Part shown: positions 2,971 through 29,050 of the stretch, in pieces
How the letters are laid out: each line of letters begins with the position of its first letter
Position numbering within the stretch: the stretch's first letter is position 1
From: Terebella lapidaria
Lineage: Eukaryota > Annelida > Polychaeta > Terebellida > Terebellidae
NCBI GenBank assembly: GCA_949152475.1
Contig: OX424560.1
Location: 18,849,106 to 18,913,105, forward strand
Direction of reading: 5' to 3'
Length of the DNA stretch: 64,000 nt
Translations under genes and position numbers: made by a program
The notes under the pieces: model-generated
The model's input: only the letters and a program-made list of their open reading frames with translations
The model's database searches: none
Told to the model about the DNA's origin: nothing

Positions 2971-3020
2971 TACGGAAGCCCGTAGAGGCCAGAAAATGAA
3001 AGGTGTGAAAATATATTTAT

Positions 3021-3170
3021 CTGGCGGCCGCCACATAATTATCTGGCGGCCGCCACTTAATTATCTGGCGGCCGCCACTTAATTATCTGGCGGCCGCCAC
3101 ATAATTATCTGGCGGCCGCCACTTAAATATCTGGCGGCCGCCACATAATTATCTGGCGGCCGCCACTTAT
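3021..3170. repeat. left subterminal array, 7 x 22-bp GGCGGCCGCC units
   Basis: Seven units of 22 bp, each a 12-bp palindrome TGGCGGCCGCCA joined by an AT-rich linker (CATAATTATC or CTTAATTATC). Every unit contains a NotI site. It is the mirror partner of the array at 28733-29010. Confidence 0.95.
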
Positions 3171-3240
3171 ATGTACTATGCACACTACGCCTTAATCTGT
3201 CCGTCTGTCACACGTGTATCGTTTCTTTGAATGTTCAATC

Positions 3241-3553
3241 ATGGATTTAGACCGTGCGATTTCTGTATATTTCAATATCGGGTTGAAATATGAGGAGATT
3301 CTTGTTGCCCTGGCTATAAATCACCAAAAATAATCAGCCTGAGAACTCTGAAACGTATATTGAGAAGGAACGGTCTCTTCCGAAGGAAGCAATTTTGTGA
3401 CTTGTTCGAGCTGGCGGATTTTATTGAAGAACAGGTAACAGCTTCTGGCAAACAACATGGTTACAGATGGATGCATTTGAAGTGTCTGCAAGCCGGAAAA
3501 ATTGCATCAAGGAAAGACGTCTATACCATTATGAAAATCATAGATCCAGAAGG
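3241..3553 (+). pseudogene. integrase-core (rve) transposase-like gene, N-terminal part
   Basis: The piece starts at an ATG at 3241 (MDLDRAISVYFNIGLKYEEI) and continues through LFRRKQFCDLFELADFIEEQ and HGYRWMHLKCLQAGKIASRK to IIDPEG at the insertion point. From memory this matches the N-terminal region of a large animal family of rve-domain proteins, common in fish, cnidarians and molluscs, in which a helical DNA-binding region precedes the DDE core. The duplicated target bases (3548-3553) lie inside its last codons. The remainder of the gene resumes at 11699, beyond the 8.1-kb foldback. I consider this copy broken by the insertion and at least one smaller interruption, so it is unlikely to be active. 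Confidence 0.7.
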
Positions 3554-3574
3554 TATGAAGCTACATTAGGGACA

Positions 3575-4020
3575 TTCGCCTTCGTGTATTTTCGCCTTCG
3601 CCTTCGTGGTGTTATCGCCCTCGCCTTCGCGTAATTTCGCCTTCGCCTTCTCATAATTTCGCCTTCGCCCTCGCCTTCGCCCACTTTCGTCTTCGACTTC
3701 TCGTAATTTCGCCTTCGTCTTCGCGTATTTTCGCCTTCGTCTTTGTGGCGTTTTCGACTTCGCCTTCGCGTAATTTCGCCCTCGCCTTCTCGTAATATTG
3801 CCTTCGTCATCGCCTTCGTCCACTCTCGCCTTCGCCTTCTTGTAATTTCGCCTTCGTCTTCGTGGTGTCTTCACCCTCGCCTTCGTCCACTCGCCTTCGC
3901 CTTCTTGTAATTTCGCCTTCGTCTTCGCGTATTCTCGCCTTCGTCTTCTCTTTCGCCCAGTTTCGCCTTCGCCTTCGCCCACGCTCGGCTTAGCTTTCTC
4001 GTAATTTCGCCTTCGCCTTC
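3575..4020 (-). repeat. GAAGGCGAA tandem array, left arm
   Basis: Imperfect repeats of GAAGGCGAAGGCGAAATTAC, seen here as the complement. All frames over it are low-complexity Lys/Arg/Glu/Ala strings caused by the repeat, not genes. It is the inverted partner of 11103-11684. Confidence 0.9.
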
Positions 4021-4029
4021 ACACACTAA

Positions 4030-4125
4030 TGTATACGCATGCAATACAAAGTCACACATATGGAATAAAAACTCATATGTGTGAGATACTAACCAATACG
4101 TATGAGACACTAACTCACACGCAGG
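4030..4125 (+). repeat. short palindromic array (CATATGTGTGAG / ATACGTATGAGA type)
   Basis: Units such as AATACGTATGAGACACTAAC alternate a palindromic core with a GAGATACTAAC-like spacer. The inverted counterpart in the right arm is at 10925-11075. Confidence 0.6.
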
Positions 4126-4199
4126 AGATACTTCATATCGCTACCGTATATTTCGTATTGCCCGATACACTGCGTACAGAAACCCATAAGAGAGAGAAA

Positions 4200-5118
4200 C
4201 ATGCAACTATTTTCCACTGAAATGGGCTGTTTTCAAACCCAGCTAACTCTGGCTCAAAACATCACATCAAAACATTTCTTATGTGTACTTGAAGCTAAAA
4301 GCTATCTCTAGAATGATAGCTATTCAAAATAGTTCAATATAATCTTGTTCTTGCATAATAGGCCTCCAATGAAGCAGCCCTCAACACAATTTCAGCTCTC
4401 TTTCCAGTCATGTCGGGCATGTGTGTGTATGGGTATGAGGTCCTGAAGAGCCCCGATCAATACTCATGAATTATAATGACATCCAGAAAGCAGTCTCATT
4501 GGTTGAAGTATATTTCCCATAAGTCTGTGCAGTATTTTCGTATGTTAATTTTGTTTTCACTTGGGAAGATATTGTAAAGCCATTAAACCGAAGATTTATG
4601 ACAGCCCCCTCCACCCCACTAGTCAGTGGATTTACATGACATAGAACTTCCAGAACAGCCACACTGTATGAAGTTTAGCTGTGCATGTTTATAGAATGAA
4701 GTTGAACAGGCTAAACACAGGGTCTGTTCTGAAGAAGGAGATTGACTGAGTCTGGAAGAACTATAAATTACCGATTGATGGAAGTGCATAGATGTATGAT
4801 ATATGGACAAATACCAGTCCGTACCCCAAACATCCATAGGGTATTTTCTTTCTGAGTAAAAAGCAGTATAATGTACATGGCTTGTGGAAGTGAAAATATG
4901 CAGCTCTCATATGTATTTGAATAGTTTTTCACATGGATATCAAATTTGCCTGGTAAACGAGGGCATGTCCTTCCTTTTCTGGACGCGGCCCTGCATATAA
5001 AAAAAACTGATTCCGTGAATATTATTGTATACTCCGATTTTTCTACCTCGTTTACACTGTTTTTCGATAATATTTTTGTGATGCTGAACGTTATCGTGCT
5101 ATAACTTGGCATACTTCA
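4200..5118. other. left-arm segment without inverted partner; no gene seen
   Basis: About 0.9 kb of AT-rich sequence between two matching blocks of the foldback arms. It has no clear counterpart in the right arm and no frame I would call a gene. Confidence 0.5.
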
Positions 5119-5566
5119 CCTGGGCACTGTCCGGAATCCGTTTCGGCAGAGGATATTGGGAAACGATATTTTTCGGTTGGGAAACGATATGTTCGATTGG
5201 GAAACGCCAAGCTGCAAGGGGGTATGTGTTGTTTTCCTCAATAAAGTATGAAAAGATAGGTGTAATTGTTGATCAAAAGAAAAAAAAGATGCGCTAATGT
5301 TGTATAAAGTCTTCAGTGTCGACCAAACCTGCTATAATAGGCTATACTTGATGTAATATCGTTTTTGGGACGTGAAATGCGATGAAAATAATACCGTTTT
5401 GAACAAATGAACATTGATGATTAAATATGTGTCTGATGCACACAAAAAGTAACACGAGTCAAGAGAAAGGTGTATTACATGATCCCCACCAAAAATAAAC
5501 ACTTTACATCGTCTCATTAATAAATATTTGCTGATTTTCCGAACCATTGATGTTTCGGTGGGTAAA
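5119..5566 (+). repeat. inner inverted block of the foldback, left copy
   Basis: Runs from CTGTCCGGAATCCGTTTCGG to the GTTTCGGTGGGTAAACGATA region and is the inverted copy of 9067-9531. It contains several spaced copies of TTGGGAAACGATAT. Confidence 0.85.
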
Positions 5567-5912
5567 CGATACGTTTAGAGAAGGCGCCGGTTGGTAATCC
5601 ATGCTGTTTCGATTGGGAAACGGAAAATTTTGTACATATGAAATACGAAAGCAACTGTTATACACGAGCAATAATGTGTGGTCTTTAGTGAAAGGTTACC
5701 CCAAGTGAATTATTATTTATAGGATTGTATGCACAACATTTTGGGTGTGAAATAAGGTGAATCGTGTGCCCGGGCTCGACACAATAGAAAAAGTTTTGAG
5801 ATTTTTGTTTCAAAAATTTGGGTCCTTGACATTGTGTATAAAGATGGAGTGCTTTGACGATCGATAGGCCCAATATTTAGGCTCAAAAGGCCCAAAATTC
5901 AGTTTTTAGCTG

Positions 5913-6648
5913 TGTGGCGATTTTGCCCTAAGCACGCGGCAGGTGATTGTAAACATAAATGCCATTTATGTGGCCTTTTCGTACTTGGCCTTGTTTTGAC
6001 ATGCTCCGTTCGAGCGTGCGTTGCCACGGCGACGTATTGTAATTTACGCTCCAGTAAACTATAACAATGGATCGATTAAACCTCGCGTGCGCCCTACAGT
6101 TTCTGGTGTATTATATATACACTGGAAGCGACTCGTTCGAGGAGATTGTCCAAGATCGAGAGACAGGACGCACACGAGGCTCGCCATGAGCTTTGTGTTC
6201 CCTGTTAGCGAGTAGTGGGCTCCTAGAGCCCTGGGGACGATTTCCGTGGGGAGGCCCGGGCTGGGAGAGACAAGTTGCTGACTCGGGGGCCTTCGGCCCT
6301 GTGGATCGCCAGCTCTCTCCCTTCCCGGGACGTGTGACAGAGGCTCTGGCCAGCATGTCGGACTGTACGGGGTTCCGTCCCCGAGGCAGACCGCGGCTCG
6401 CCAGGCCCCGCCAGTTAACACCGTAGGGATGAACTAGTTTCTGAACGGTGTCCGTAGGCCTGGGAGGGTCGGGTGGGCGGTTACCTGGTTACCGTTAATG
6501 CTGAAGTAGTTACCGTGTCCGCCGCGACCTCCGGTGAGCGGCCCTGCCGCGAGGATCCGGAATAGCGGATGCGCGTCCGCCAGGACTCGGATGAGAGAGG
6601 ACTATCCTCGAGGATCCCGAAGAGCGGACGGTAGTCAATAACTTTACA
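5913..6648 (+). mobile_element. solo LTR (736 bp) with 4-bp target duplication
   Basis: Begins TGTGGCGATTTTGCCCTAAG and ends GTCAATAACTTTACA, the same termini as the LTR at 1113-1600. GCTG lies directly outside both ends (5909-5912 and 6649-6652), so it is a complete solo LTR left after recombination. TATATATACACTGG near 6112 may be its promoter. It interrupts the centre of the 8.1-kb foldback and is therefore younger than that insertion. Confidence 0.9.
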
Positions 6649-6652
6649 GCTG

Positions 6653-8788
6653 TTTCTTCAAAAACTGTCTGATCAGTTTTGAAATGTTTGTTCAAAAAGA
6701 TTCCTCTTATGTACCTTTCTTAACGTAGTCCGCTACAAACAGTGAGGTAACGAAAAGTCGAAATTTAAAAGTCATTTCTTGAATATTATCTCTTCGAAAT
6801 GATATTATTTTATAGAGTAAATGATCAGCATCCTAATACTGAAAAGAAAAAAGGGGGTTACCGTGCTCGTTTCTTCTACATATTCGATCGAAATCACACA
6901 AATTTACCTAAAATGACATAAATTATGGCATTTTTGCACATTTTTTCGTTCATATTCACATCTTGCATCGTGTTTTCCATGCGAACGGATACGGTGACCC
7001 CCTATTTTCTTTTCAGTTTCAGGATGCTGAACAGTTACTCTATAAAATATATCATTTTGAAGCTCTAGACTATATTGACACAGTTATTTTTTTTAAAAAC
7101 TCTTTGACCCCCTCCCCTCACTGTTTGGAGCGGACTACCTTAAATGTATAAGTTTCGTTGCCCTTCAATCGCCGGTCTGCATGTGGTGGCCATTTTGAAT
7201 TTTCGACAGGTTGGTGAAAAAAAACTTGTCGTCCCAAATGAAGTCACTATTCGTTTTGAGTGATATCCAACCAAAAAAAGATTCTCCCTTTGAAAACTTT
7301 TCTTGGATTTCACGCAATTTTTCCGTCATAATGGGAGCTGTATGGAGTAAACTCCTAGAACACTTCAAGATAGAGCTTAAATATTGGCACATTCAAATAG
7401 GAATTCATATATTGTGGTTTCGGTGGTGATCTTGAATTTACCTTCAATGACTTTGAGACGCCCTTTTTTGTCAAAAAACGGTCAATTCTGGACTTTGGCG
7501 ACCATTTCCTCAAAACCTGTTTAGACGGTTTTCAGATTATCGTTTGAAAAGATCCCCTTTATGTACATGTACCTCTGCGACATGTCAAAGTTTCTTTGCC
7601 CTTGAGTCACTCAAAGTGGGCCATTTTGGCCCAAATGGGACTTTTTCATGTTAAATTCTCTTATGCTTTATAATGGGACATATTATTGCTAATATCTCAC
7701 TTAATATTGAGATTAGAGATTAGGAATCAATTGTGGACATGTAGAAAATGGTATGTGTTGAATATTCTCATAACCTTAAATTTCACTTCGACCTAATTGT
7801 CACAGGACAAAATGGCTAATACTAGTATCTCGCTCCTTATCGACTTTATGGCTTGGGAAGTGGACAGATAGGAAATGATATACGTCAAATTTCCTGATGA
7901 TCTTGAATTTGGCCTTGATCTCATTTTCAAAGTCAGAGCACAAAATGGCAAATATATATCGCTTATTACCAACTTTACAGCAGATGAATCAATTGTGGAC
8001 ATATAGGAATGATATATGCTGAAAAATTTCGTGACCTTTGATCTTATTGTCAAGGTGAGACAACAAAGTGTCTAATATCTCGCTTATTATCAACTTTATC
8101 AACTTCGAATTTCCTGATGATCTTGAATTTGGCCTTGAACTCATTTTCAAAGTCAGAGCACAAAATGGCAAATATATTATGTTAATGGCAAATATATAGT
8201 CCAGAATTGACCGTTTTCTTATTAACTCGTACGTACGACTTGGTAACCCGTACGTACGACTAAGTATCTCGTACGTACGACTTAGTAACTCGTACATACG
8301 ACTTATTAACTCCTATGTATGACTTATTAACCCGTACGTCCGACTTATTAACTCATACGTACAAGTTAGTAAGTCGTACTTATGAGATACTGAGTCATAT
8401 GTATGAGTTATTAAGTCGTACATACGACTTAATAAGTCGTACATACGACTTAATAAGTCGTACATACGAGTTACTACGTCGTATGTACGAGATACAAATT
8501 TTTACACACTTGATAGCAATACGCTTCCGTAATTGTGGGCATATAGGAAATGATATAATGCCGAATATTCTCATAAGCTTGAGGTTGACCTTTGACCTTA
8601 TTTTCAAGATCAGAGCACGAAATGGCTAATATCTCGCTCATTATCGACTTTCCAACTTAGGAATCAATTGTAAACATATAGAAAACAATGTTCCCCTTGA
8701 GCAGACATTGTTGAAAAATTACCATTGCAGACTTTGAGACCTTAACACCGTACATTTCCCCGGTAACATTTCTCAGCCTTTGGGCTAA
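6653..8788 (-). repeat. diverged AGGTTACCGGAC-type repeat in the foldback centre
   Basis: On the minus strand it opens with TTAGCCCAAAGGCTGAGAAA then TGTTACCGGGG (near 8756-8788), the head of the dispersed family seen at 26785. The body shares the family's TTGACCTTG-like phrases and ATGGC-rich stretches. The far boundary is uncertain. Confidence 0.5.
8221..8495. repeat. palindromic CGTACGTACG array
   Basis: Units of about 21 bp combine the core CGTACGTACG (or CGTACATACG) with a spacer TTAGTAACT / TTATTAACT. The first half reads as ACTCGTACGTACGACTTA and the second in the opposite sense, so the whole can fold back. The spacer is the one used in the 901-bp element at 51212-52112. Confidence 0.85.
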
Positions 8789-9066
8789 GTTTTCCCTGTT
8801 TCCTCATCCACAACGGGTCTCAGCATTGAAAAGGTTTTTTCTTGGTGTTTGTCAAATGAGTGCTTCACAATGTGGTTAGAGTCTTCAAACTTGGAATGAC
8901 AGTTATAACACCTGGCGTTGAAGCCGCGAGACGCCATCTTTTGGAAGAAATAATAAGTATGAATGAATAATAGCCAAAAACGAGCCTTAATGGGCCATAC
9001 ATTTCCAATAAAATATCGTTTACTAATCGAAACACCCATATCAGAAGTGTTGTCCAATCGGAACAG

Positions 9067-9531
9067 TATCGTTTACCCACCGAAACATCAATGGTTCAGG
9101 AAATCATTAAACATTTATTAATGAGACGATGTAAAATGTTTGTTTTCGGTGGGGATCATGTAATACACCTTTCTCTTGACTCGTGTTACATTTTGTGTGC
9201 ATCAGACACATATTTAATCATCAGTGCTCATTTGTTCAAAACGGTGTGATTTGCATCGCATTTCACGTCACAAAAACGATACTACATCAAGTATAGTAGG
9301 TTTGGTCGACACTGTATTGGTGGTAATAGATTGATACTTACATTAATACAACATTAGCGCATGTTTGTCTTTCTTCTGATTACCGATTACACCTATTTTT
9401 TCATACTTTATAGAGGAAAACAACACATACCCGCTTGCAGCTTGGCGTTTCCCAATCGAACATATCGTTTCCCAACCGAAAAATATCGTTTCCCAATATC
9501 CTCTGCCGAAACGGATTCCGGACAGTGCTGG
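9067..9531 (-). repeat. inner inverted block of the foldback, right copy
   Basis: Inverted copy of 5119-5566, ending CGGATTCCGGACAGTGCTGG. Identity is high across roughly 450 bp, interrupted by small length differences. Confidence 0.85.
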
Positions 9532-9859
9532 GAGTCAAACGGCAATTTTCTACCAAATTTCAGACAGCTATCGCGCAAATTGAAAGAGTTGGCAATCTAC
9601 CCCAATGTTAAATTTAGCCCTATTATTTATTTTCTGGGCCCGCACACAATTTTGTGCATTTGCTCGGTTTTGTAGCGGAGCAATGTTTCAAAATCAACAT
9701 TTTTGTGTAGAATACACCCCAATGTACCTTCTGATTGAAAGTTACAAGAATATTTCCAATCCTGATGGATGTAAACAGGACCAATTCCTCAAATATGCTT
9801 AGATTATCTCTCTTATGGGTTTCTGCTGCGTCTCTCTTATGGGTTTCTGCTGCGTAGCA

Positions 9860-10924
9860 TGTAAATGCGTTGTATCTACCGGCTACCGTCGAATGCACAA
9901 TATCGTATTGCCTGCTAATATCGATTGCGAAACATCATATTGCTCGCTTGAATTATTCGTTATTTTTTATAATTGATATTCAGGCCCATGCTAATATTAT
10001 TTAATATACAGTATACTCCCTCGTAATAAATTATATCTGCATGCTAAAAGGTGTGGTTTGTGGTTTGTCACTCCGCCAATCATAGGTATCGCCTCACCCA
10101 ACCTCCCCCCCCCCCCCACACACACACACCTACAACCCATACTCTCTTATTTCCCCGCAGCGAATCGACTGATTGGTCAAACCATTGTCAAGTGTTATCT
10201 GCATTGCAGTCGACTTCAACGAGAATTCTGGTTGTTTAGTTCATCTTAAATAAACCTTTGAACGAAAACTAACCATATAAAATATATACAGATATTACAA
10301 GTATATACCATAATGCGAAGAAAAATCATAGTGTCCATACTTGATAAGAAAAAAAAATGGTGGAATCCTTATAACAATAAAATATTCGTTGAAATAGCTT
10401 ACTGAATAAATAATCCGCCGTAATAAAATATATATACAAACCGACCGATTGTAGAATAAAAGGAATGTCAGTCTAAGTATTTCTGAGGAGTAATACAGAA
10501 TATATCAGCGTTCCATTATATATTTGAACGTGCATATGTTTACAATATTATAAAACTCACTGGATATCACGATATGCATAACAATGAAATCTACTCATGC
10601 TACATAGCCGTCATATTTATTTCAAAGAACGCCTTAGCCGAACGGAAATATAAGAACAAGAATATTTCAAAAATGAAAAAAAAAAACTTTTTGGATGCTG
10701 AGATGAGACCGGATAAATTGTATTTATGTACAGTGTAAAACTTATTCTAGAAATTAATATTAATTGCCGATAAAGATCAGTATCGGTTATGGTGGACACA
10801 TGTGATATATCGTGAAGATATGGGGAATATCAAAATGCTTCAGTTTAATAATAAAACAAAAACACCTGACCAATCGCAGTCTTTAGTCGCTTTAATTTCA
10901 CGGAGTTTCTATGGCAACATCATG
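9860..10924. other. right-arm segment without inverted partner; no gene seen
   Basis: AT-rich, with a run of 13 C followed by a CA microsatellite (10105-10128). I find no supported gene. It probably represents later insertion or loss in the other arm. Confidence 0.5.
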
Positions 10925-11075
10925 GTCGTTATCGTATACGTATGACATATTATCTCATACGTATGAGATATACTATCTTACGTATGCCCTATTATTTCAT
11001 ACGACCTAATATTTCATACGTATGACTTATTATTCCATACATATCACTTTGTATCACATACGTATGAGAAGGCGT
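10925..11075 (+). repeat. palindromic CATACGTATG array, right arm
   Basis: Repeated CATACGTATGAGATA-like units, the counterpart of the array at 4030-4125. Confidence 0.7.
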
Positions 11076-11102
11076 ACCTCATACTTTGTATCTCATACAC
11101 AT

Positions 11103-11684
11103 GAGAAGGCGAGATTACGAGAGGGCGAAGCCGAAAGTGGCCGAAGGCGAGGGCGAAATTGGGCGAATGCGATACTACAAGAAGGTGAAGGCGAAATTAC
11201 GCGAAGGTGAAGGCGAAATTACAAAATTACGAGGTCTAAAACACCACGAAGATGAAGGCGAAAATACGCGAAGGCGAAGACGAAATTACGAGAAGGCGAA
11301 AGCGAAATTACGTGAAGGCGAAGGCGAAATTAAGCGAAGGCGAGGTCGAAAACACCACGAAGGTGAAGGCGAAAACACGCGAAGGCGAAGGCGATATTAC
11401 AAGAAGGCGAAGCCGAAAGTGGCCGAAGGCGAGGGCGAAATTGGGCGAAGGTGAAACTACGAGAAGGCGAAGGTGAAAATAGGCGAAGGTGAAGGCGAAA
11501 TTACGAAATTCCGAGGTCTAAAACACCACGAAGGTGAAGGCGAAAATACGCGAAGATGAAGGCGAAATTACGAGAAGTCGAAGAAGAAAGTGTGAGAAGG
11601 CAAGGGCGAAGGCGATATTACGCGAAGGCGAGGGCGAGAACACCACGAAGGCGAAGGCGAAAATACACGAAGGCGAATGTCCCT
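11103..11684 (+). repeat. GAAGGCGAA tandem array, right arm
   Basis: Imperfect GAAGGCGAAGGCGAAATTAC repeats including two larger sub-blocks that repeat a phrase with ACACCACGAAGG. Inverted partner of 3575-4020. Charged low-complexity frames over it are repeat artefacts. Confidence 0.9.
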
Positions 11685-11698
11685 AATGTAGCTTCATA

Positions 11699-12975
11699 AG
11701 AAGGTGTCGAACAGCGCAAGAAGGGTCGGTTGAGAAGACGACGGTATTTTAGCAAAGGCCCAAATTACCTGTGGCACGTTGACTCTTATGATAAGCTCAA
11801 GCGATATGGGATCTGCATCAATGGGTGCATTGATGGGTTTTCGCGCTATTTAATTTGGCTGAATGCATATGTCACCAGCAGTAATCCACGTGTCATTGGA
11901 GGCTACTATATGGAGGCCATCGACGAATTTTCTGGTTGTCCTCTCCGAATGCGAGCTGATATGGGAACTGAAAACGGACTCATAGAGAGAATGCAGACGT
12001 TCCTGGTGGGACCTAGTTCGTTTCTGTACGGCAAAAGTACGCACAATCAACGTATCGAAAGCTTTTGGAACATTTTACGGAAACAGTTCGCTCAGTTTTG
12101 GATAGATCTTTTCAATGGAATCAAGGACCAAGGAGACTTCACTGGAGATTATGTGGATATCAATTTGGTACAATTCTGCTTCTCCAACCTGATCCAGGTA
12201 TGACAATAAAGTATTTGCTGAATATAATAACAACAATATCGATCGGGATATGTCCACATTTAATCGTATCTACCCCATGGGGTAAGTGTGACTCGCTTTT
12301 TCTTGTTAAACTATAGTTTAATACGGAAAAGCCAGTAATCCTCTTCAGCTTCACGCTGTCCCAAACAAGGACATTCAGGCCCATAGAAACGAATCCAGAC
12401 ACTTCTATAGTGTCACTAAGTTGGCATCAATGGGTTATGTGTCCCCATCTATATTGTAACAACAACAACAACAACAAAAACAACAACAACAACAACAACA
12501 ACAATAATAATAATAATAATAAATTATTATAAATATAATTATTATAATAATAAAATTATTATAAATAATTATAATTATTATAATCATAAAAACAATTAAA
12601 TTATTATTATTATAATGCGATGTGTATTTTAATTTCTAGAAGGAACTGGATGCTGTAAAATCAGTGTGGAATTGCCATAGCATTCGTCCCAGCAAGAACG
12701 AAAATGTCCCACATGGCAAACCAGTCGCTTTGTTTAGTCTACCTGAAGTCTACTCAACCAAGAGTTATTTAACCAATGTCGACCAAGAACATGTAGAGAC
12801 CTGCCGGACTGAATGCATCATGAGGGACGGATTGACGTGTGACCCTGAAGTCTTCGAACTTCTCACTCTGTACATGGTGGGACACGGACTGGATCCTCCC
12901 ACGAATGCCAGCGAAGGACTTGATTTGTACATGATACTACGGGGCTTGATCCAGAATGATGTCTATGCCAATTAA
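11699..12975 (+). pseudogene. integrase-core (rve/DDE) transposase-like gene, core and C-terminal exons
   Basis: Coding sequence resumes after the insertion at GAA GGT (11700) and runs to a donor at 12197/12198 (CAG then GTATGA). The core shows the likely DDE triad: Asp in WHVDSYDKL, Asp in RADMGTENG and Glu in NQRIESFW, with ICINGCIDGFSRYLIWL between the first two. The intron (12198-12639, phase 0) ends TTTCTAG, and the last exon begins KELDAVKSVWN and stops at 12975. Family: eukaryotic rve-fold transposases or integrases; I think IS3EU-like, from memory of 6-bp duplications and TAY ends. It lacks chromodomain and zinc-finger motifs typical of retroviral integrases. The upstream part is at 3241-3553, and this copy is broken by the 8.1-kb insertion. 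Confidence 0.75.
12198..12639 (+). other. intron with CAA and AAT microsatellites
   Basis: GT-AG intron of 442 bp in the transposase-like gene. It carries (CAA)n near 12463-12504, (AAT)n near 12505-12523 and an AT-rich palindromic stretch to about 12615. Confidence 0.7.
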
Positions 12976-13026
12976 GACTATATCGATATGTGATTGTGAA
13001 GCCATTACTAGTCGTTTTTGTCGATA

Positions 13027-13032
13027 AATAAA
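13027..13032 (+). terminator. polyadenylation signal AATAAA
   Basis: AATAAA lies 52 bases after the stop codon of the transposase-like gene, at a usual distance for a 3' end. Confidence 0.6.
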
Positions 13033-16706: not shown

Positions 16707-18205
16707 TGTGGCAAGATCGCGGCAGGAGATTTGTTATTAATACTGTGACGTTTAGTAAGGACTTGTTTTCGGTGTGGCCCAAAAAACCTGGTTTCTCTGA
16801 TCGTATAGACTTTTGTAACTCCCGCTCGTTGTGATTCGAGAGCCGTCACTAATCTGGCGTTCCCCAACGCTGGTGTATCATCACTCAGTAGCTCACCGGC
16901 TTCACTTAGGCAAGAAGCAACTCAGATGCAAATAAATTGAAGATTTATATACATCAAATCAACTTACAATTGTATGGCTGGTCACCCACGTGACGTACAG
17001 ATATGAAGTACAGACATGGAGCACTGTATGATCACATTTCAAAAATAAATAGTGCACGAGGGCACAACTAAAAAGAGTTCTTAGCCGGCGGCGTCTCTCT
17101 GTCCCTTCCCGTTGAAGTTTCCCGTCCCGTTTAGTCGAATGGTTTCTCCAGGTAGTCGGTCTAATCCCGGTTGACTCTAAGGCCCTGAAGAAGGAGTCGT
17201 CCGCACGGAGTTCGTCGAGTCCCTTGGCTGTGGCGGTGACGATCTCCCCACGGTCGATGTCGCTGTTGCAGTGCTCTCAGAGCGGCCGTCCGCTCTCCCT
17301 TATATAGCCAGGGTGGCTGCGCGCGCATCTTCTTCCGCGAACGTATCTTCCGCACTCTTCTCCACGTGGTGAAGACTGCGTCCGCGAACGGTTCTTCCGC
17401 GAAGGCTCCTCTTCCGCGAACGGTGCTTCCGCGAATGATGCTTCCGCTAATGATGCTTCCGCGAACGGTTCTTCCGCGAACGGTGTCTCCCGCCAGTGGA
17501 CTTTGTAGATCACGTGACCGTTCCTAACGAACGTTTCAGCGCGGCAGTTGCATGGTTTTGTTACAATACTATTCTTGTTTTGGCCGGTTCTGCTCGAAGT
17601 TCGTGAGTTGCCGTCCTTCTCTATATGCACTATATGGCACAATGGTCTTATGTCATTCCCTCGTCTCTCGTGCGCTGGGGTTTTAAATACTTCCAGCCCG
17701 TTTTGCTCGAAGTTGTCTCATAGCTGGCAAAGCGAGAGGACGACGGTTGAGCTCGGCCATGGTCTCCTCGTCCGTTTCCGGGTAGTGGGCCAGTAAGGCC
17801 CCGGAACGATTTCCAATTGGGGGTCCAGAAGGGGGACCGTGCTGATTGACCTCGCCCTGGGATGGTGTGACACAGGCTCTGGCAGACCGTTGAGCTGCCC
17901 AGGGTTCTATCCCAGCGGCAGCATACCGTCGGCGAGACCGGCCAGCAACATACCAACGTACGCGAGTTGTGGTGCCGCCCCCATGGCATCTCATGCATGC
18001 TTCGCATAAGGCTACATTACCATAACTGATGTATAATGTATTTTGTATGTCTATGATGTGTTATGATGTGATGTAGATCTATGATCGGCCGGATTCGTCC
18101 GGACGGACTGTTACCTGGTTATAGTTCTAGTAATTACGACGCCAGCCGTGTTTGTGCCTGACCGCGGGGCGCTTGCGCCCTAGGTAGCGGGCGTCGAACG
18201 TTACA
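16707..18205 (+). mobile_element. solo LTR (1499 bp) with 4-bp target duplication
   Basis: Starts TGTGGCAAGATCGCGGCAGG and ends GTCGAACGTTACA, related to the LTR ends at 5913-6648 and 1113-1600. ATTA lies directly outside both ends (16703-16706 and 18206-18209). The inner part shares GTAGTGGGCC and ACGATTTCC phrases with the 736-bp copy, so the family is the same but the subfamily is longer. CTTATATAGCC near 17299 is a possible TATA box. It looks complete as a solo LTR. Confidence 0.85.
17380..17492 (+). repeat. short tandem repeat CTTCCGCGAACGGT inside the LTR
   Basis: About seven imperfect copies of a 14- to 15-bp unit (TTCCGCGAACGGTGC). Repeats of this type contribute to the greater length of this LTR relative to its relatives. 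Confidence 0.8.
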
Positions 18206-20139
18206 ATTATTATGACATTGCAGTATGGGGTTTTATGCCCGAGGGCCAAGTCTTTGAGAAGCCCGACGCGAAGCGGAGGTCTTCCTGAAGACTTGGCCCG
18301 AGGGCATGAATTTTCTTTTGTGCGATAAAAAATTGATTTTTAACTTGAGATAGACTTTTAGCATGGACGTGAATGGGGCTTTAAATCGCTTTAAATCGCC
18401 GTCTCTCCCCATATCGCCCGGTATCATCAGTGTTAGATCTTCCGCTTCCGGCTAAGATCGAGTTGAGGGCGTCGGCTTCCATCTGAAGTTGACCTGCCTT
18501 CTCCGTCTCTTCTTTCGGATGACAGCCACAGTTCGTCCACAGGTGCTCTTGGCTTTGCTTCTTCCGACTGATTCTTAACTGCTTTCTACCGCAGGTTCGC
18601 TTTCGGCATTTCTTTTCACCTAGTATTCTTCTTGGAGTCGGTTGCACCGGCGCTAGAAGCACATATTGATGCTATTTTCAAATATGTATTCAAAGAATTA
18701 TATAAAGATCTATCTGTTGAAGGTTTTGATGGTTCATCATATCCATCTAGATGGAAATGACATCTGTTCTAACCGCTCTGGAATTACGTGAACAAATATT
18801 TCAGCAACACGTATTTATTTCTATTATTGTTCACGAAGGATCATTTTGCTGCTGTATTCTATGTTTCTCCGTGTTTTCGGGTAAAGTGTATATGAATGTG
18901 CGAAACAAAGACAGTCTATACTAGTACACTGGAGTTCCAATTATTTTTTGTGGACACCCTGATCATGTCAATATTCTATCCAAGATACAGCCCCTCACCA
19001 GCAGTGCGATATCTCACATGTACATGAAGATGACCTGATGATCCGGTGCATTGAAACACAGGGTGTTTGATAACCCCACGATCCATTTACACCGGCCCTT
19101 CCCAATTTCTACATTTCCATATAATATCACACTGTTCGTTACTGTTGACCAATTTTGGCACAAAAGAGCGACGTTGCTCAGTATTTTCCCCACATGTTAG
19201 TTCGCAAACGTAATAAAAAAGTAATATATCAAACATATATTCAACGTGAAATCCATCCTTGTTTTTATTTCGCGAAAACAAATTGTTAAAAACATCATAC
19301 ATCACACTCAACACCATGAGCAACGTAAAATGTACAAACACATTCCAAACCAAAATCACACATGGGTGCATCAGAGACAACTTGTGCTTGCTGCATATGG
19401 AGTCAACCTTAGTACAAGCGGAACAAAATATAAGATGAACAAGCTTTTAAGCATGAATACAGAGTGAAAATCCCGCCTGTATGGATAACAATGATAAACT
19501 GATTTTATGTGGATACGACCTAAACAGTCCCTGTCACGTACAAACAATTACATCGTAGACGTGAATAATGTAAAAGAATATGTACAAGTAAAATCAGCTG
19601 CCCTTTTTATTATCTCATGATAACAAATTGTTACATAAAAACTCCGAATCAAACATGAACAACGTGCAAGGCATGCGTCATTAATTAATCATTAAGCATC
19701 ACGTACAACGAAAATACCATGACAGAAAACAAATTCCATCACTTTGTTCGAAAACAACATAGAGTACATAGAGTACATGCAGTAAATCGGAAATCATGTG
19801 CATGCAAATTGAGGAACAGGCAAATTACAACTGGTTGAAGAACACGTTGTGCTCGGAACGAAATTGCTGGTGTTCAATATATATGTACAAACACATTCTG
19901 AACGAAAATGAATAAAAAATGGTGCAATAGAAAAAACCTCAATACCAACCTCACAAAAGTTAAATGCATATGCCTTTATACATTCTGGGATTGATGGATA
20001 TGCACGCGTTACGGTATAATATCATTTATAAGGCCACGACCTGAACTCTCTCATACAAAGTAAAATTACAACATACATGTCATTACTGTGAATACTGTAC
20101 AGAAATATCTTGATGATAGAACTAGATGTTCACATCTAA
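18206..20139. other. mostly non-coding; one doubtful minus-strand frame
   Basis: An imperfect hairpin lies at 18228-18303 (GGCCAAGTCTT ... AAGACTTGGCC). A minus-strand frame at 18381-18662 (93 aa) has KKCRKRTCGRK and TNCGCHP, faintly like a CXC zinc-binding repeat, but too little to name. The rest probably includes the 3' UTR of the HECT gene and shows nothing else. Confidence 0.4.
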
Positions 20140-23100
20140 TCAAACAATGTCCATCTGATAATACCTATTTTTCAGCAATGCCATGAAATCGCCCTTGAAG
20201 TTGACGTAAGGGTCTCGTGCATAGGACTTGGGGATTTCTAAGACGCATCCACAGGTATGAGAGGTGGGACAACGAACGTTGGCAGAGGCCTCCGTCGCCG
20301 TGAATCGCACGTGTATCGCATTCTTCGTTAGGATATCAGATCCAGTGCAAAAGCGGAGGAAAAGACCCAAGTACTCGGGATCATCTAGTTCTCTAACAAA
20401 TCTCTTCACTCTGGGCTCCATAACTCTTTCGTCCTCGATTTCTGGTGTAGGGAACACCAATTGTTGCAGGACCCTTTTCGGGGTCGGTTGGAGTTCACGA
20501 TATATATGTGCGACATCTTCCTTGGCCAAGGCGCTCTCTGACAGAACCTTGTGGATACAATCGGCGACAAACATGGGTGTCTGCACGAGTTCTTTGTGCG
20601 CGATTTCCTCGATGGTCCTGTGTATGTTGCTGGCAGTAACATGCGTCTTCACTTCGTGTCTTTCGAGTGTATCAAAGAGCTCATCATCTTCAACTGACGA
20701 GAAGTCCTTCAAAGCTGAGTCGAACACGAATCTGTCCATTCCAGGGACATACTTCAGGAAAGAGGAGATCATTTGTGATTGATCCACGACACCTGAGATG
20801 GCTTGCTGCATAAAAGGAAGCGCTAGTTTGATAGGAAGTATCCCTTGCTGGTCAAATCCCAGTTTGATGACGCAAGCGACAGCTCTCCACCGAGCTTCTG
20901 TCATATCATGTCGTATCACTGGGACTTTGTAATTGTTACCTTCTGTATACATAAGGTAGAAAGTTTCCCAGAACTCCGACAGAATGTCTCGTAGGACGCC
21001 TCCGTTGTCTTCTGCTACTTCTGGTGTACCATCTTGTTTCAGGACTTTTACTTCCACTTTCTCACTGATGGACATGTCTTGCGATAACATTTCTATGAGT
21101 TCTTGGCACACAAGTCCACGGTGCACAGAGATTTCGCGCACAGGAGCATCCGTATCAGGAGCATGTGTGTTTTCAATTGAGTTCTCGTCTGCATCTCCGA
21201 CATCATGCACCTCTGTTGTAGACCTACTCTGTAATTCTCGAATAAGTTTGTCGATATCGCTTGAAGTGTCTTGTGTGTCTCCCATCTCATTGATCCCAGA
21301 CACTAGAGTTGCCCTCGCGAGAATATCTTCCTCTGCGTGCTCCGCTGATACCATGAGTGGGATAGTATCGTCAAGCATCACGATTCCATCAGATGACACA
21401 CCGCCGATCTGTATTGTAACGGGACTTTGTTCACCTACACCAGGTTGACAATTCTCGATGAAGTTAGCGGCAGAGGACATCATGACACTGGTTTCACCAT
21501 GATGTTTTGGATCCGCGGTAGGCCTACTGCTACACGCCACTCCCAGAGTGTCGGGAGTAGACCTCTCCGGGTTTCCATTCACTGGAAATGACAGGTCTTG
21601 TGTCAAGTCAGGCAGGGTGACACTCGATGTACTATTTTTCTTCCCAATAAGATAGCACCTCAGGTGTTTCATTTTCAAACGTTCCGTCAACTCAGTGACA
21701 GTTTCATCCGCATTCATCAGTTGGGTTCCATTGACATCCGTGGAAACATCGAATAAGAACTGTTGCTTTTCGCCATATGAATTTCGGCCGTCTGGGAAGA
21801 AGATGTCACAGCACATTTGCATCAAGTGCTCTTTGTTCGTGTCCTTTGTTAACCTGAAGTGCCTGATTCCCCCTCCAAGAGGGGCTCTGACTTGTTTGTA
21901 CCTTCCGGAACTTGCTTCGAAAATGCACAGGCCAGTGGTGGCAGCTCTGTCCTCTTTGGTGGCAGCCTGTGCCTGTTTTAATTTCCTGGTTTTTCCTCTA
22001 CCTGAAGATGGTCCTCTCCTCAAAGAACTACGTAACATGTAGTTACATTCAGCGCCTTCAGCTTCATCGTCGTCGTCTTTATCATCATATTCTGTCTTTT
22101 GCAATGTCTTTCGAGCCCCCCACATTCGCTTCTGGAGGTTTTGAATCAGGGAGAATTTCCGTTTCGATTCAGACGATGTGGATTTGTTGACAAACGCCTT
22201 AACTGCAATTCGGTCGCCTTTTTGGGGCAAGTATGTGACGAGGTCATCTTCAGTCATGTTGCGTATGACATCGTCGTCAATCTATCAATTAAAAGAAAAT
22301 TGTTAGACAACCAGATATCAAGGGCGTTAGATGCCTTGGGGGTATTCCGTTTCAACCTGTTGTCAGCGCTAAAATATGACCAGAAAAATATTAGCCCAAA
22401 GGCTATGATAGGTAACCGGACAATTTTGGTTCGGATAATGGCAGGTAGCACACCTTGAGATTCACCAATCAAGGTTACCAGTGTGAACATATTACCTTGC
22501 GATTTGCCAATCAAGGTCATCCATGTAAACTTCAATGTCACCATTACATGTACGTGTGCGGCATTTGATTTTCTATATGTTCATAATACAAAGATATATC
22601 TGGTGCAAGCATATAGGCCGCTCAGGCCAATTTACACATTCCGATTCAGACATTTGGCACTCAAGGTCATCTGAGGTAAAGTTCAAGGTCATCATTAGTT
22701 GTGCCATATATGTCCTATGTGTTCATAATGCAAACATAAGCATTATCTGCAAGCATTTCATCCATAGAGGCAAATCTGGACAAATTTGACCAAAAAATGG
22801 CTGTTCTGACCTTTCAAGGTCATCGAAGGTCAAATTCAAGGTCACCACATAAGTCGCCATATATGACTTCCTATTTGAAAGTGCCAATTTCTAAGCTCTA
22901 TCTTCAGGCGTTCTATGAGTACACCTCTGGCAGCTCCCATTATGAAGGAAAAATGGGTCTAAAACTTTTATCAAAGGGTGAAACTAATTTTTTGCCTAGA
23001 AATGGCGCAAAATGGATAGTAACACGATTTGGGCCGAAAAAATGTTTTTTCGCCGACCCATCATAAATTCAAAATGACAGCCACACGCAGACCGACGATT

Positions 23101-25416
23101 CAAGGGCGACCAAACTTAGGCCATGTTGTGTTTTCTCTTTGTTTCCCGTCAACTTTTTTTTCGAAAAGTACCCGCCAGCCAGGAAAAAAAACAAACACAG
23201 AAAAAAACACACAGACGTTCATCATCACGATACCATCTTTTTTTCCCAAAGTAACTCATGCCAAAAGTGTAAAATAAATGGCATTTGACCATTTGCTAAG
23301 CTATTAAATACTTTATTGATAATAACAGAGAGAGAAACAGCAAAATGGAAACCAATTACTATCCTTCACGAAGTTCTGTGTTTTGAGGGCTAGAAAAACA
23401 TCATTTTTGAGGGGGGGAAAGACAAAAAGGTTTGTGTTTTTTCTCTCAGAATAATTGTTATTTTCACCCACCTGCTGACGGGAAACAAAGATAGAAAACA
23501 GCACGGCCTTATACATATAACAGAGGTACATAAGTGAATCTTTTGAAACAAATATCTCAAAACTGTCGGAACAGTTTTTGAGAAAATGGCCGTCAAATTT
23601 CTAAATTGGCCATGTTTCAACGAGAATGGTTGCCATTTCGAGGAAAACGCGAAAATCAAAAAACGGAAAAAAAGCTTTCTTGGGAATATTTTTTATCTAT
23701 TTTTGTGCAAAATTTCAGAAAGATTCGACCTAAACTTTAAAGATAAAAATGTGGACGGACGACGGACAAGGCCGGACGCAACGCCATGCCAATAGGTTAT
23801 CGGACCAAAGCTGGGAAGAGACTATGCTGACTCATTGAAAGAAAACAAACTTGACCCACAGCCAGGTTTGTGCAAAGTACTGAGTACCCACAAGACATAC
23901 CTGTGTGGTCCACGGGGTTAAAAAAGCAAAGTACATTTTGTGACATGTGATATGTACATTTGTATGACACACCGATATGCCAGGAAAATATAAAATAACG
24001 ATTCGGTTAAAATGAATGGCCCGGAGCCGAGTTCATGCTTTAGACACGTTTGTCCAGGCTGCCGAGCCCGAAAATGATGTCTTTTTGGCTTTCTGAGATA
24101 CAGCAACTCAGTTATTCCCATTGACAACTTTGGCCGGAGTACAACACAAATGACACATGTCGGTTTATTTGTCTGTGTAAATAACGTCCGTGTCCTAGAT
24201 ACGGCCAGAAAAACGAAATGGAAAGGAAATTCAACAGTACTTTTGTCGAGCCCGATCAGACCAAAAATAACACCTAAGTTACTAGTATACATGTACATGT
24301 ACTCTGGATCAAAAATCACTGACAGATTTGTCTCAGGATGAATAAGGTTCTTCTCAAACACTATAAGGAATGTATGTGCAAAGCTTTACGACATGTGTCA
24401 ATATCTAAGCTTTATCACAAAGCAATACAGATCGCGCAAATCATGATTTGGAAATACATGTACCACTCAAGGTCATCTGAGGTCAAGTTCAATGTCACCA
24501 AAATATCTGTCATATGTGACTTTCTATATTCAAAACACAAAGTTAAGCCTGTAGCTCCAAGCACCTCCAGGGGCCAATTTGGGCATTTAATGTCACGTTT
24601 GACCCTTTTGGGAGCTGGAAATTTAGGCCTTTCGGGCGAATATTCAGGTCAAGTGTCTTCATACAGGGGCTAAACAGTCATGAATGTCATCAACATTTGG
24701 AATTACAAATGTAGAGAGAAAACACTGAATAGATTTCGAGGAAAGTACCAAACATTGAAAATATGGACATTCAAGGCAACGACTGTTTGAACAGATATTG
24801 AGGAAATGGCCGCCAAAGTATAAACATGCTATGGACATTTTTCATCTAATACGGCCGCCAGTTAAAGAAAAAAAACTGATATAAATGATTTAGCCAAAGG
24901 GTCAGATAGGTTACCGGAAAATTTAACATGGTTGAACTGACGAAGTCCAAAAATAGCCTTTCTCAGCTAGAAAGATCGTGTTGACCTTTTATTTTAGGGT
25001 CATTGCATGTCATATTCAAAGTGACCATTGAAATCACAATAATACCAGTAGGACTTCCAATTCCAAGATAAAGACGATATTCCAAGATGTAGACGATGGG
25101 CTATGGAGCACGGACCCCAACCCATACCAATAGGTTATCCGACCAATTGGTCCGATGATCTAATGAGAGGATTCTTACAAAACCATAAAATCGTTGAACT
25201 ATCACAAGTTTATCATGAGTGAATGAAAATAGTTTTGATTACCAACGAATTATTTTAGAATGAGCCTAATAAATCCGTACCGCATACCAGACAGAAACTG
25301 AAAATGACTGAGATTTATGCAACACTGTTTTGTCTTACCTTGTCATTCTCCAGTTTATCCACGATTTCTTCCGCCACATCTCGGCTCAACAAAAATGATC
25401 TGAGTGTGGAAGCCAT
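20140..25416 (-). CDS. HECT-type E3 ubiquitin-ligase-like protein, two coding exons, 739 aa
   Basis: Coding exon 1 is 25416-25339 (MASTLRSFLLSRDVAEEIVD...), with acceptor CAG just before its ATG, implying an upstream non-coding exon. Exon 2 is 22281-20140, acceptor TTGATAG, phase 0. Residues 1-60 look like a SAM-like helical module. A basic/acidic linker (about 85-140) and a domain with GGGIRHFRL and FFPDGRNSYG (about 160-240) follow, the latter typical of HECT proteins found with transposons. Residues ~409-739 form a compact HECT domain: EDNGGVLRD near 450, VPVIRHDMTEARW near 480, RFCTGSD near 670, and the catalytic-type Cys703 in CPTSHTCGCVLEIP. With E2 enzymes such a domain would transfer ubiquitin. 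It reads intact and lies convergent with the transposase-like gene inside the giant element, so I infer cargo or a transposition factor. Closest habitual annotation: G2/M-phase-specific E3 ligase-like. Confidence 0.8.
22391..23810 (+). repeat. AGGTTACCGGAC-type dispersed repeat
   Basis: Head TTAGCCCAAAGGCTATGATA then GGTAACCGGAC, tail CAATAGGTTATCGGACCAAA. It carries five TCAAGGTCA motifs and is about 1.4 kb, longer than the copy at 26785. Non-coding. Confidence 0.8.
24890..25160 (+). repeat. short AGGTTACCGGAC-type repeat copy
   Basis: Head TAGCCAAAGGGTCAGATAGG, then TTACCGGAAAATT, tail CCAATAGGTTATCCGACCAA. The central part is missing relative to the long copies. Confidence 0.7.
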
Positions 25417-25724
25417 CCTGCAAAAAAAAGTGTCATGATTTAATGTCACATTAGAATGCTGTTTATTTCGTCCACGAAATACTATGGTGTACCTATCGCT
25501 ATTGAATCTTCAATTTTGTGGGTAAAAAATGGGTTCTATCTATACTTATTGAAGGCCTTGATCCCCGTGGTTGAGTAACGACAAGTCAATGTATTCAGTT
25601 CTCACAATGTGACTTACATATATATACAGATATACAATCTGGCATAGAGATTGAAAGACAAAGGGAATGTCTGTACGAAGCCTATGCACAAAAAAATCCC
25701 CCAAAAATGTACCAAATATAAAAT

Positions 25725-25990
25725 TTAGTTTAAGGGCTAGTCAGGTTACCGGACAGTGGAAAACGGTGCATTACATTCAACCTCCAGTTCGAGGGCCTAT
25801 TCAGCATTTCTGTGCAAAATTTCAGAAAGATTCGACCATAAACGTCACAGACTTTTCCGTTATAAGTAGGCTAAATGGCATTGAAAACAATGCGATAATT
25901 CAAAAGCTAAAGAAAAATTACTATATTTTGATTATTTTCTGCATTCCTATGCGAAATCCAGAAATATTCAACCATAAACTTTACAGATAA
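25725..25990 (+). repeat. fragment of the AGGTTACCGGAC-type repeat
   Basis: Shows AGGGCTAGTCAGGTTACCGG at the head and a family-like phrase TGTGCAAAATTTCAGAAAGA. It lies just upstream of HECT coding exon 1. Confidence 0.55.
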
Positions 25991-26784
25991 AAAAATTTCC
26001 ATTAAGTAATTGGCCAGGGTTTTTTTCCAAATGTTAAAAAAAATCATAAACAATTAATAAAGGAAAAAATCCAAATTCCGGAGGTTCCCCCCGCGGCGGG
26101 AGGTCCACCCCAAACCAGCAGACCAGCCGAGGACAGAGAGGGGGTCTGGTAACACCCAGAGAGGACACCACCCCGACAGGCGAAAGAACATCTGATCAAA
26201 AATTTGACGGTCACGACACCAGACCACGCTACCACTTGATCTTGATGTAGGAAAAGGACCCCAGTACCGATACAATAATAATGCATTATTCATGAATCTA
26301 TATCAAAAATCCAATGCTTACGTATTGAATAGTTTGTAAAAAGCAGTGATTTTAATATATTTTATTCATTTTGAAAATGTTAAATACTGTATATACCGCT
26401 ATCATTCATAATTAAGTTGAGGCAATCACAATCTTAGTTGTTGGCTTATCGATTTCAGCATTAAATGTCAATTTTTATACAAACTGAGAACAGTTCATTA
26501 AACTGAGTTAACGAATAATATTTTGAACGAACAATTCGTTTTTGAGTGAACAGAGAACACCGTAATATATATTGAACGTACGCTTTCACAGACTGAGGGA
26601 GTGTGTTAGAGTTGAGAGAACGGTTTATTTTGCCGATGTCATGCCCTATTAAGGGTTCCGTAAGTCTGCACTCACTTCCCTGCACTTACTAAGTTTACAA
26701 ATAGGCATATTCCGAGTCGATCGTTCAACGGATTTCCATCGCAAACCCAACCTGTTCTTCAGTTACTTATCTGAGTAAAAAAAA

Positions 26785-27824
26785 TTAGCCCAAAGGCTAA
26801 GGTAGGTTACCGGACACTTTTGGTTTGGCCATGGCCATGGCAGCATTGGCAGGTAACAGACCTTTACCAATCAAGGTTCGCAGTGTAAACATATGACCTT
26901 GGGATTTACCAATCAAGGTCATCCATATGAACTTCGATGTTACCATTACATTTGATATTCTATATGTTGGGTGGAATCGTTCAGGCCGCTCAGGTCAATT
27001 TACACATTCCAAGTCAGACATTTGGCACTCAAGGTCATCTGACGTCAAGTTCAAGGTCATCATTAGTTGTGCCATATATATTATGTCTTCCTATATGTTC
27101 ATAATGCAAACATGAGCTCTATCTGCAAGCATTTCATCTATAGAGGCAAATCTGGGCATTTTTTTTACCCAAAATGGCTGTTTTGACCATTCAAGGTCAT
27201 CCAAGGTCAAATTCAAGGTCACTACACAAGTCGCCATATATGACTTCCCATTTGAAGTGCCAATTACTAAGCTCTATCTTCAAGCGTTCTATGAGTACAG
27301 TCCGGACAGCTCCCATTATGAAGGAAAAAAGTCCCGAAAATTTTTTAAGTCCAAAATTTTTTTCAAAGGGTGAAAAAAAATTTTTGCCCTAGAAATGGCC
27401 CAAAATGGATAGTAATGCGAAAAAAAATGTTTTTCGCCTACCCGCCAAAAATTCAAAATGGCCGCCACACGGAAACCGGCGAATTTAGGGCAACCAAACT
27501 TATACATATCACAGAGGTATATGAGGGGAATCTTTTGAAACCAAAAACTCAAAACTGATCAGACAGTTTTTGAGAAAATGGCCGTCAAAGTCCAAAATTG
27601 AGTGTTTTTCAACAAAAACGGCCGCCATTTTGGAAAAAAAGGGAAAATCAAAAAACAAAAAAATACCTCCTTCTCAAAATATTTTTAGGCATTTTTGTGC
27701 AAAATTTCGAAAAAAAAAATTCGATCGTTAACTTTAAAGATAAAAATGTTAACGCCAGACTGACGGACGGACGACGGACACAACGCCACGCCAATAGGTT
27801 ATCGGACCAAAGGTCCGGTAACCT
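26785..27824 (+). repeat. full-length AGGTTACCGGAC repeat with inverted ends
   Basis: Begins TTAGCCCAAAGGCTAAGG and AGGTTACCGGAC, and ends with a 12-bp stem-loop GGTTATCGGACC-AAA-GGTCCGGTAACC followed by T and an A run. It holds five TCAAGGTCA motifs. No open frame of note, so it is a non-autonomous element of unknown class. Confidence 0.8.
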
Positions 27825-28732
27825 AAAAAAAAAAGGAGTTTACCTGATTACTACGTCCAGTAGAGTCGCGATTATCAGTAATTGTAATCGGGATAATCCG
27901 CCGTGAAAAAGATCAGGTTACAATAGCCATGGCCCACCACAAAGGGAATATATATTAGTTCCCATGCGTGTTACTGGCTAGGATGTCATGGATAGATGCG
28001 TGTACGCCTATGTTTGTTATAATTCGATTGAAGCTGAATTAAATGCCCGTAAAAATTAGTACTGGTTATCCACCGTGTTCCGGTTCCAGACCGGATTGAA
28101 TACATTGTATCAATTTCTATATATAGCGTGTGTTTATGTACACGCTATATTTCTTCATTCTGGTCAGTGAATGTGTGAATGTCATGTAAACTCTAGGCCG
28201 GATTAAGGCTATATAATTCAATAAATTTTTACAGGGCATTGATAATGTTGTTTCGTCAAAAAACTTTTTAAAAAGGATCAAATTTACTGAAGTTTACCAA
28301 CCGGACTTGCAACGTTTAGATATGCACTATAATGACACATTCTCAAAAAAGGGTCGCGAAAAACGAGCATAAACTGTAACAAAACTACCTGTCACACATT
28401 ATTCTGCTTTTCACAATCTTCTATCACCGTGAAACACCTTACTCTATCCTGCCAGAGCAGTATGTTATTGAATCCTGCATCAACACGCGAAATGATGCTC
28501 AACCGCTATTTTGAAAGATTCATATGTAGCTGATCTATTTGTGAGAGTTTGTTTACCAAACTAATACAGATGAACCCACACATATCATCACACAATTAAA
28601 GCCGTTTCGTACACATAATATACCATATTATTATCCAAGTAACTGTTAGTTTGACACATACGCACACTCGTTCTCAGCGTTTCTGTTCCAAATGCAGGAT
28701 ATACCAAACTGCTGCGTTAAAGCACTGATTAT
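27825..28732. other. no gene seen
   Basis: AT-rich sequence with one 11-bp hairpin around 28121-28151 (ATATAGCGTGT and its complement). Nothing else can be supported. Confidence 0.55.
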
Positions 28733-29010
28733 GTGGCGGCCGCCGGATAATTATGTGGCGGCCGCCAGATAATTATGTGGCGGCCGCCAGATAATTAAGT
28801 GGCGGCCGCCAGATAATTATGTGGCGGCCGCCAGATAATTAAGTGGCGGCCGCCAGATAATTATGTGGCGGCCGCCAGATGATTAAGTGGCGGCCGCCAG
28901 ATCATTAAGTGGCGGCCGCCAGATAATTAAGTGGCGGCCGCCAGATAATTAAGTGGCGGCCGCCAGATAATTATGTGGCGGCCGCCAGATAATTAAGTGG
29001 CGGCCGCCAC
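28733..29010. repeat. right subterminal array, 13 x 22-bp GGCGGCCGCC units
   Basis: Thirteen units of GTGGCGGCCGCCAGATAATTA type, in the inverted sense to 3021-3170, followed outward by TAAATATATTTTCACACC and the terminal TTCCGTA. Confidence 0.95.
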
Positions 29011-29050
29011 TTAAATATATTTTCACACCTGGCACTAACGGTCTTCCGTA

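Follow-up and report, generated by a model that had tools for sequence, protein, structure and literature searches.

A probable IS3EU-type DNA element of about 26 kb enclosing a HECT-like gene in the annelid Terebella lapidaria

The stretch of the Terebella lapidaria genome analyzed here (assembly GCA_949152475.1, contig OX424560.1, positions 18,849,106 to 18,913,105 of the forward strand; 64,000 nucleotides, hereafter the window) contains, at positions 2971-29050, an interval of about 26 kb which is best read as a single inserted DNA element. The evidence for this element rests on a shared end motif and on the tandem arrays located next to it. A transposase gene with an integrase-type core and a gene encoding a HECT-like protein are present between the ends, and we consider it probable that the interval is an IS3EU-type element to which the HECT-like gene belongs as its own. 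An earlier note, made from the sequence of the window, had proposed at this place one large element with terminal inverted repeats (TIRs), containing genes for an rve-fold transposase and a HECT ubiquitin ligase; the present analysis supports such an element, its second gene being HECT-like.

Ends and subterminal arrays

The left TIR (2971-3012, plus strand) opens with TACGGAAG and the right TIR (29010-29050, minus strand) closes with CTTCCGTA at position 29050, the termini of the element being TACGG...CCGTA, i.e., of the TA..TA type. Next to the left TIR lies a tandem array with a 22-bp period (3013-3166, plus strand), which contains seven GGCGGCCGCC palindromes, and next to the right TIR lies a mirrored 22-bp array (28728-29009, minus strand) containing 13 of them; the self-reverse-complement identity of these arrays amounts to 0.85 and 0.84, respectively. 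All 20 exact copies of GGCGGCCGCC found in the window are accounted for by these two arrays. The subterminal regions 3001-3169 and 28862-29030 match each other in inverted orientation (94% over 169 nucleotides), and an 18-bp stretch, GGTGTGAAAATATATTTA, is common to both ends. The inverted ends, the mirrored palindrome arrays and the two genes were all located where the earlier note had placed them. The GTTTT duplication it had described at both junctions does stand directly outside the two ends (2966-2970 and 29051-29055, no strand assigned), the repeat being exact over 5 bp only.

The end motif TAYGGRA yields 104 pairs of ends spaced 80-40,000 bp apart in the window. One of these pairs (2971/29050; 0.12 expected) is flanked, at the named boundary, by a 5-bp repeat that is exact, and one (51212/52112; 0.03 expected) by a 6-bp repeat that is exact. 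The ends abutting an array can be combined into four pairs, and the flanks match in the two pairs proposed here and differ in the other two. The association between the end motif and the arrays was also assessed on all the 8-mers of a given copy number, taking in all 19 Tandem Repeats Finder (TRF) rows with a period of 20-22 bp. Among the 1,165 8-mers occurring exactly five times, eight have every site within 60 bp of such an array, and TACGGAAG is the only one of these eight to lie wholly outside the arrays, its ends being 41-49 bp away from them. Of the 2,031 8-mers occurring four times, one qualifies in this way, namely ACGGAAGC, which comes from the same ends, and of the 730 occurring six times, none does.

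Ends of the same type were identified at two other places in the window. The first is a separate 0.9-kb element (51212-52112, no strand assigned). Its ends are TACGGAAGC, its 6-bp duplication, GAAATA, is exact, and its 22-bp arrays differ in sequence from those of the 26-kb element and have a self-reverse-complement identity of 0.50 and 0.46 (ungapped). The second is a one-sided TACGGAAG end at 8531 with a 21-bp palindromic array (0.79), which together span 8218-8531 on the minus strand, inside an element nested in the 26-kb one; it is what remains of a further element with ends of this type. The combination of a TACGGAAG end with a 21-22-bp array thus recurs in three insertions, each with an array sequence of its own, which suggests that spacing matters, the arrays perhaps serving as repeated binding sites of the transposase.

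An element bounded by long terminal repeats was also considered and rejected: the palindromic arrays aside, no direct repeat of at least 70 bp brackets both genes.

The interrupted transposase gene and the IS3EU/GingerRoot superfamily

The transposase gene lies on the plus strand and starts near the left end. Its pieces were read and searched separately. The first piece, which carries the start ATG, occupies positions 3241-3330, and the second (3336-3551) is in a different frame, which indicates a frameshift near 3330; the latter shows a weak match with HTH_21 (expectation value (E) 0.0013, 19.4 bits, cut-off 28.1). The catalytic core (11700-12197) matches the Pfam family rva_4 (E 2e-27, 96.6 bits, cut-off 26), which we take to be the family of the IS3EU transposases, and contains candidate D, D and E residues separated by 58 and 32 residues. 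A putative last exon (12640-12972, stop codon 12973-12975), the GT/AG borders of which were read from the sequence, would follow a putative intron of 442 bp and has no Pfam match. The gene is split by a nested 8.1-kb element (3554-11698, plus strand) with the TIR TATGAAGCTACATTAGGGACATTCGCC and a 6-bp duplication, AGAAGG. The integrase-core gene of the earlier note is present as far as its rva_4 core is concerned, but the transposase gene of this copy is broken, both by the frameshift and by the nested element. The frameshift may be an assembly error, whereas the nested insertion splits the gene regardless.

The TIRs of the nested element are identical at 61 of their 62 leading bases. None of its five frames of at least 120 amino acids has a Pfam match over the cut-off; the best score, 23.6 bits against a cut-off of 24, was that of NucS_C and came from a frame crossing a tandem array. 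Mirrored arrays of the TTCGCC type (3575-4020 and 11105-11677), which are not palindromic (0.28), are located just inside its ends, and further in, there are 21-bp arrays (4075-4132 and 10929-11067) which are partly palindromic (0.64 and 0.65).

By Kojima and Bao (PMC10045372), IS3EU is grouped together with GingerRoot, and the complete IS3EU families are described as having termini which are always TA..TA and duplications which are usually 6 bp long. The 26-kb element appears to fit IS3EU/GingerRoot in its ends and its integrase core, and less exactly in its 5-bp duplication; its ends would fit IS3EU better than Polinton or Ginger. It resembles the elements of the IS3EU/GingerRoot superfamily (PMC10045372) in its TA..TA termini, its integrase-type transposase and its short duplication, and differs from them in its length of about 26 kb, its HECT-like cargo, an exact duplication of 5 instead of 6 bp and perhaps also its 22-bp subterminal arrays. 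The closest parallel as regards cargo is that of the fungal IS3EU elements bearing TET genes: according to Kojima (PMC12730594), these have TAYGG..CCRTA ends and 6-bp duplications and carry TET/JBP and alpha-kinase genes, the alpha-kinase gene being oriented opposite to the transposase, and the TET cargo was proposed to counter silencing. The present element is similar to them in its TAYGG..CCRTA ends, in the presence of cargo and in having a gene opposite to the transposase, whereas the cargo described in that text (PMC12730594) is a TET/JBP dioxygenase plus an alpha-kinase, in fungi, and the cargo found here is HECT-like.

The HECT-like gene and its place in the element

The HECT-like gene, located on the minus strand, runs from the right half of the element towards the plus-strand transposase gene, which comes from the left end, the layout of the two genes being convergent. 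It consists of a putative exon 1 encoding 26 amino acids (25339-25416, donor GTAAGA) and of exon 2 (20140-22281), which encodes 713 amino acids plus the stop codon without any internal stop and includes a match with the HECT C-lobe near its end. The two exons are flanked by in-phase GT/AG signs and would give a product of 26 + 713 = 739 amino acids. An open frame of 714 codons has a probability of about 2e-20 of arising by chance under independent bases. The PTSHTC motif of the protein aligns with the PTSHTC of UBE3A, the aligned cysteine being presumably the catalytic one, and neither Pfam nor PDB gave a match for the first 227 amino acids of exon 2. The product of this second gene appears to be a divergent HECT-like protein: the likeness to the HECT ligases of the UBE3A type is confined to a C-lobe stretch including the aligned motif, while the sequence as a whole is very divergent, scores below the Pfam cut-off and has no match in the remainder of the protein. 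The HECT ubiquitin-ligase gene of the earlier note is consistent with this alignment with UBE3A, whereas the Pfam HECT score stays under the cut-off.

Several results weigh against reading the interval as an IS3EU-type element with a HECT-like gene of its own. At the junctions, the duplication is exact over 5 and not 6 bp, the flanking 6-mers being AGTTTT and GTTTTG; the loss of one base from a 6-bp repeat could explain this difference. When pairs consisting of an 8-bp TIR starting with TA and a 5-bp repeat were counted, nine were obtained in the window, including the 26-kb element, whereas 30 Markov resamples gave 3.97 on average, and these two features alone are weak evidence and not proof. 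A scan for 9-bp TIRs with 6-bp repeats gave five pairs in the window versus a mean of 0.43 in the resamples; these include the nested element (3554-11698) and the element 51212-52112, and the 26-kb element is absent from them because the ninth base of its TIRs and the sixth flanking base differ. The transposase core has no significant match in PDB, the best E values being 0.44 for an unrelated protein and 0.47 for the integrase of human T-lymphotropic virus 2. As regards the IS3/IS481 kind of DDD/E transposase that characterizes IS3EU, the NCBIfam matches with IS481 (E 0.0084) and IS3 (E 0.078) carry little weight, since both are far under the cut-off and the unrelated Hfq (E 0.0036) scored better than either.

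As regards the second gene, the Pfam HECT score is 16.8-20.1 bits, under the cut-off of 23.9, with E values of 0.0055, 0.0014 and 0.00053 when the 713 amino acids, the last 335 and the last 229, respectively, were used as the query. The best PDB matches are C-lobe chains of UBE3A, with E values of 0.08 (713 amino acids) and 0.011 (last 335 amino acids), and the AlphaFold models obtained from the single sequence were unusable (mean predicted local distance difference test score 35.7 for 335 amino acids and 47.5 for 106). Lastly, tblastn confirmed no relative of either the transposase core or the HECT exon in viral and prokaryotic contig collections, where the pattern searches had returned 2, 4, 15 and 13 matches; since this search suits close relatives and covers viral and prokaryotic contigs only, this absence says little about animals.

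These scores bear directly on whether the 739-amino-acid protein might be a diverged relative or a pseudoenzyme rather than a working ligase. The HECT match is sub-threshold, the alignment is good only in the C-lobe stretch, and FANCI_HD2, a family without relation to it, comes close behind HECT (14.2 versus 16.8 bits), whereas both the alignment of PTSHTC with that of UBE3A and the length of the open frame, given its chance expectation, speak against this alternative; we regard it as rather unlikely.

Whether the two ends belong together is the next point to consider, since they might stem from different insertions of related elements and enclose host DNA that includes a HECT gene of the host. 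With other TACGGAAG ends present in the window (51212-52112; 8531), two ends without relation to each other might come to lie opposite one another, and the combination of an 8-bp TIR and a 5-bp repeat says little on its own. Both ends have, however, the same array sequence in mirrored orientation, a sequence not found exactly anywhere else in the window, they share the 18-bp stretch, and only the two proposed pairs among the four possible pairs of array-bearing ends have matching flanks. An origin in two separate insertions is very improbable in the light of these data.

The ends being those of one element, the HECT-like gene, enclosed as it is by the two matching target repeats, is part of the mobile unit now. 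It might nevertheless have arrived in an IS3EU element by a later nested insertion of another element or of host DNA. Part of the 26 kb consists of later insertions or dispersed repeats (3554-11698; 22384-23810; 26778-27812), and one TIR-like pair with a 6-bp repeat (16074/26055) brackets the gene, which also counts against the gene being the element's own. At least one bracketing pair of this kind arises, however, in 10 of 60 Markov resamples (mean 0.17), and the intervals scanned contain no exact 9-bp TIR which, together with a repeat of at least 4 bp, would bracket the gene. The putative intron speaks against the gene being a simple processed copy, and in the cargo-bearing fungal IS3EU elements, a second gene is likewise oriented opposite to the transposase (PMC12730594). 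A later arrival of the gene is thus unlikely, although not negligibly so, and the reading in which it is the element's own is preferred. With one copy to judge from, the presence of the HECT-like gene already in the ancestral element is a tentative reading, and that the transposase and the HECT-like gene travel together as a rule is a supposition based on this copy.

Possible mechanism and other contents of the window

By analogy with other integrase-type enzymes, the transposase would bind to the subterminal arrays, the 22-bp period of which corresponds to about two helical turns, cut at the TA..TA ends and join them to a staggered cut in the target. This half of the mechanism follows from the superfamily. 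The copy described here would be mobile only via a transposase supplied by another copy. The steps involving the HECT protein are the least certain: it would have come with the ancestral element and might ubiquitinate a host silencing or repair factor, or the transposase itself, or tune the levels of the transposase. The HECT part of the mechanism is a hypothesis, and so is the role in transposition or host evasion that the earlier note had suggested. It is conceivable, and put forward only tentatively, that there exists an animal IS3EU lineage with its own co-evolving HECT ligase, which aids transposition or disarms silencing, and that many of the HECT genes annotated as host genes in such genomes are transposon genes.

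Links between integrase-type transposases and the ubiquitin system have been suggested previously. In the study on Ginger1 (PMC2836005), the authors proposed that the ubiquitin pathway participates in transposition and that the OTU and Ulp1 domains tie transposition to ubiquitin-controlled repair. Ginger1, as described there, is similar to the present element in that an integrase-type transposase is linked to the ubiquitin/SUMO system, via OTU or Ulp1 domains. It belongs to a different superfamily, and in the account given there (PMC2836005), domains removing ubiquitin or SUMO are fused to the transposase, whereas here there is a separate gene resembling those of ubiquitin-attaching ligases. 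No OTU or Ulp1 domains were detected among the frames scanned in Pfam, and no search was aimed at Ginger1 or Ginger2 traits such as a Gypsy-type integrase with a zinc finger and a GPY/F motif.

The earlier note knew of no description of an element of this form. The element does fit the known, though little-studied, IS3EU/GingerRoot superfamily, and what appears to be already on record comprises IS3EU elements and the cargo of the fungal ones, in the literature cited above; HECT-like cargo was not met with in the open-licence text. Among the matches listed in open-licence full text, as judged by their titles and the first lines of their abstracts, a text collection which leaves Repbase and most subscription papers outside its scope, there was no HECT gene in a transposon, and IS3EU together with HECT gave no match in that text, a Repbase record being possible. 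As the present copy hints, elements of this kind may bring along means of acting on the protein-tagging system of the host. If the HECT protein proves to be a standing partner, a ubiquitin-attaching enzyme would join the ubiquitin- and SUMO-removing domains of integrase-related transposons such as Ginger1 (PMC2836005). This would provide a direct way of testing the proposal that transposons exploit the ubiquitin pathway, and would be a warning that the HECT-like genes of such genomes may be mobile cargo.

The Pfam search covered 14 of the 18 frames of at least 120 amino acids within 2971-29050, the other four being antisense to the HECT-like gene and its intron edge, and short exons escape a search of this kind; rva_4 excepted, none of the 14 frames scanned gave a match above the cut-off. 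Between the two genes, on the minus strand, the region 17161-18060 has a guanine-plus-cytosine content of 0.56 (0.40 in the window) and contains four frames which overlap and of which none has a Pfam match, along with a 15-bp tandem array. Copies of a dispersed repeat, 72-79% alike, occur in the HECT intron (22384-23810), between the HECT-like gene and the right end (26778-27812) and in the nested element (7144-7456). Another repeat has inverted copies at 1113-1600 and 5913-6648, which are 93-97% identical, one of them lying within the nested element.

Outside the element, two frames encoding rhodopsin-type receptors were identified on the minus strand (34008-35186 and 58766-59998; 7tm_1, E 1.8e-21 and 3.5e-22). 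They are located in blocks which share about 85% identity along 1.8 kb and form part of a longer and more diverged duplication (32122-38364 versus 56944-63812). A LINE-like (long interspersed nuclear element) reverse transcriptase frame of 538 amino acids is present on the plus strand at 38579-40195 (RVT_1, E 7.6e-39).

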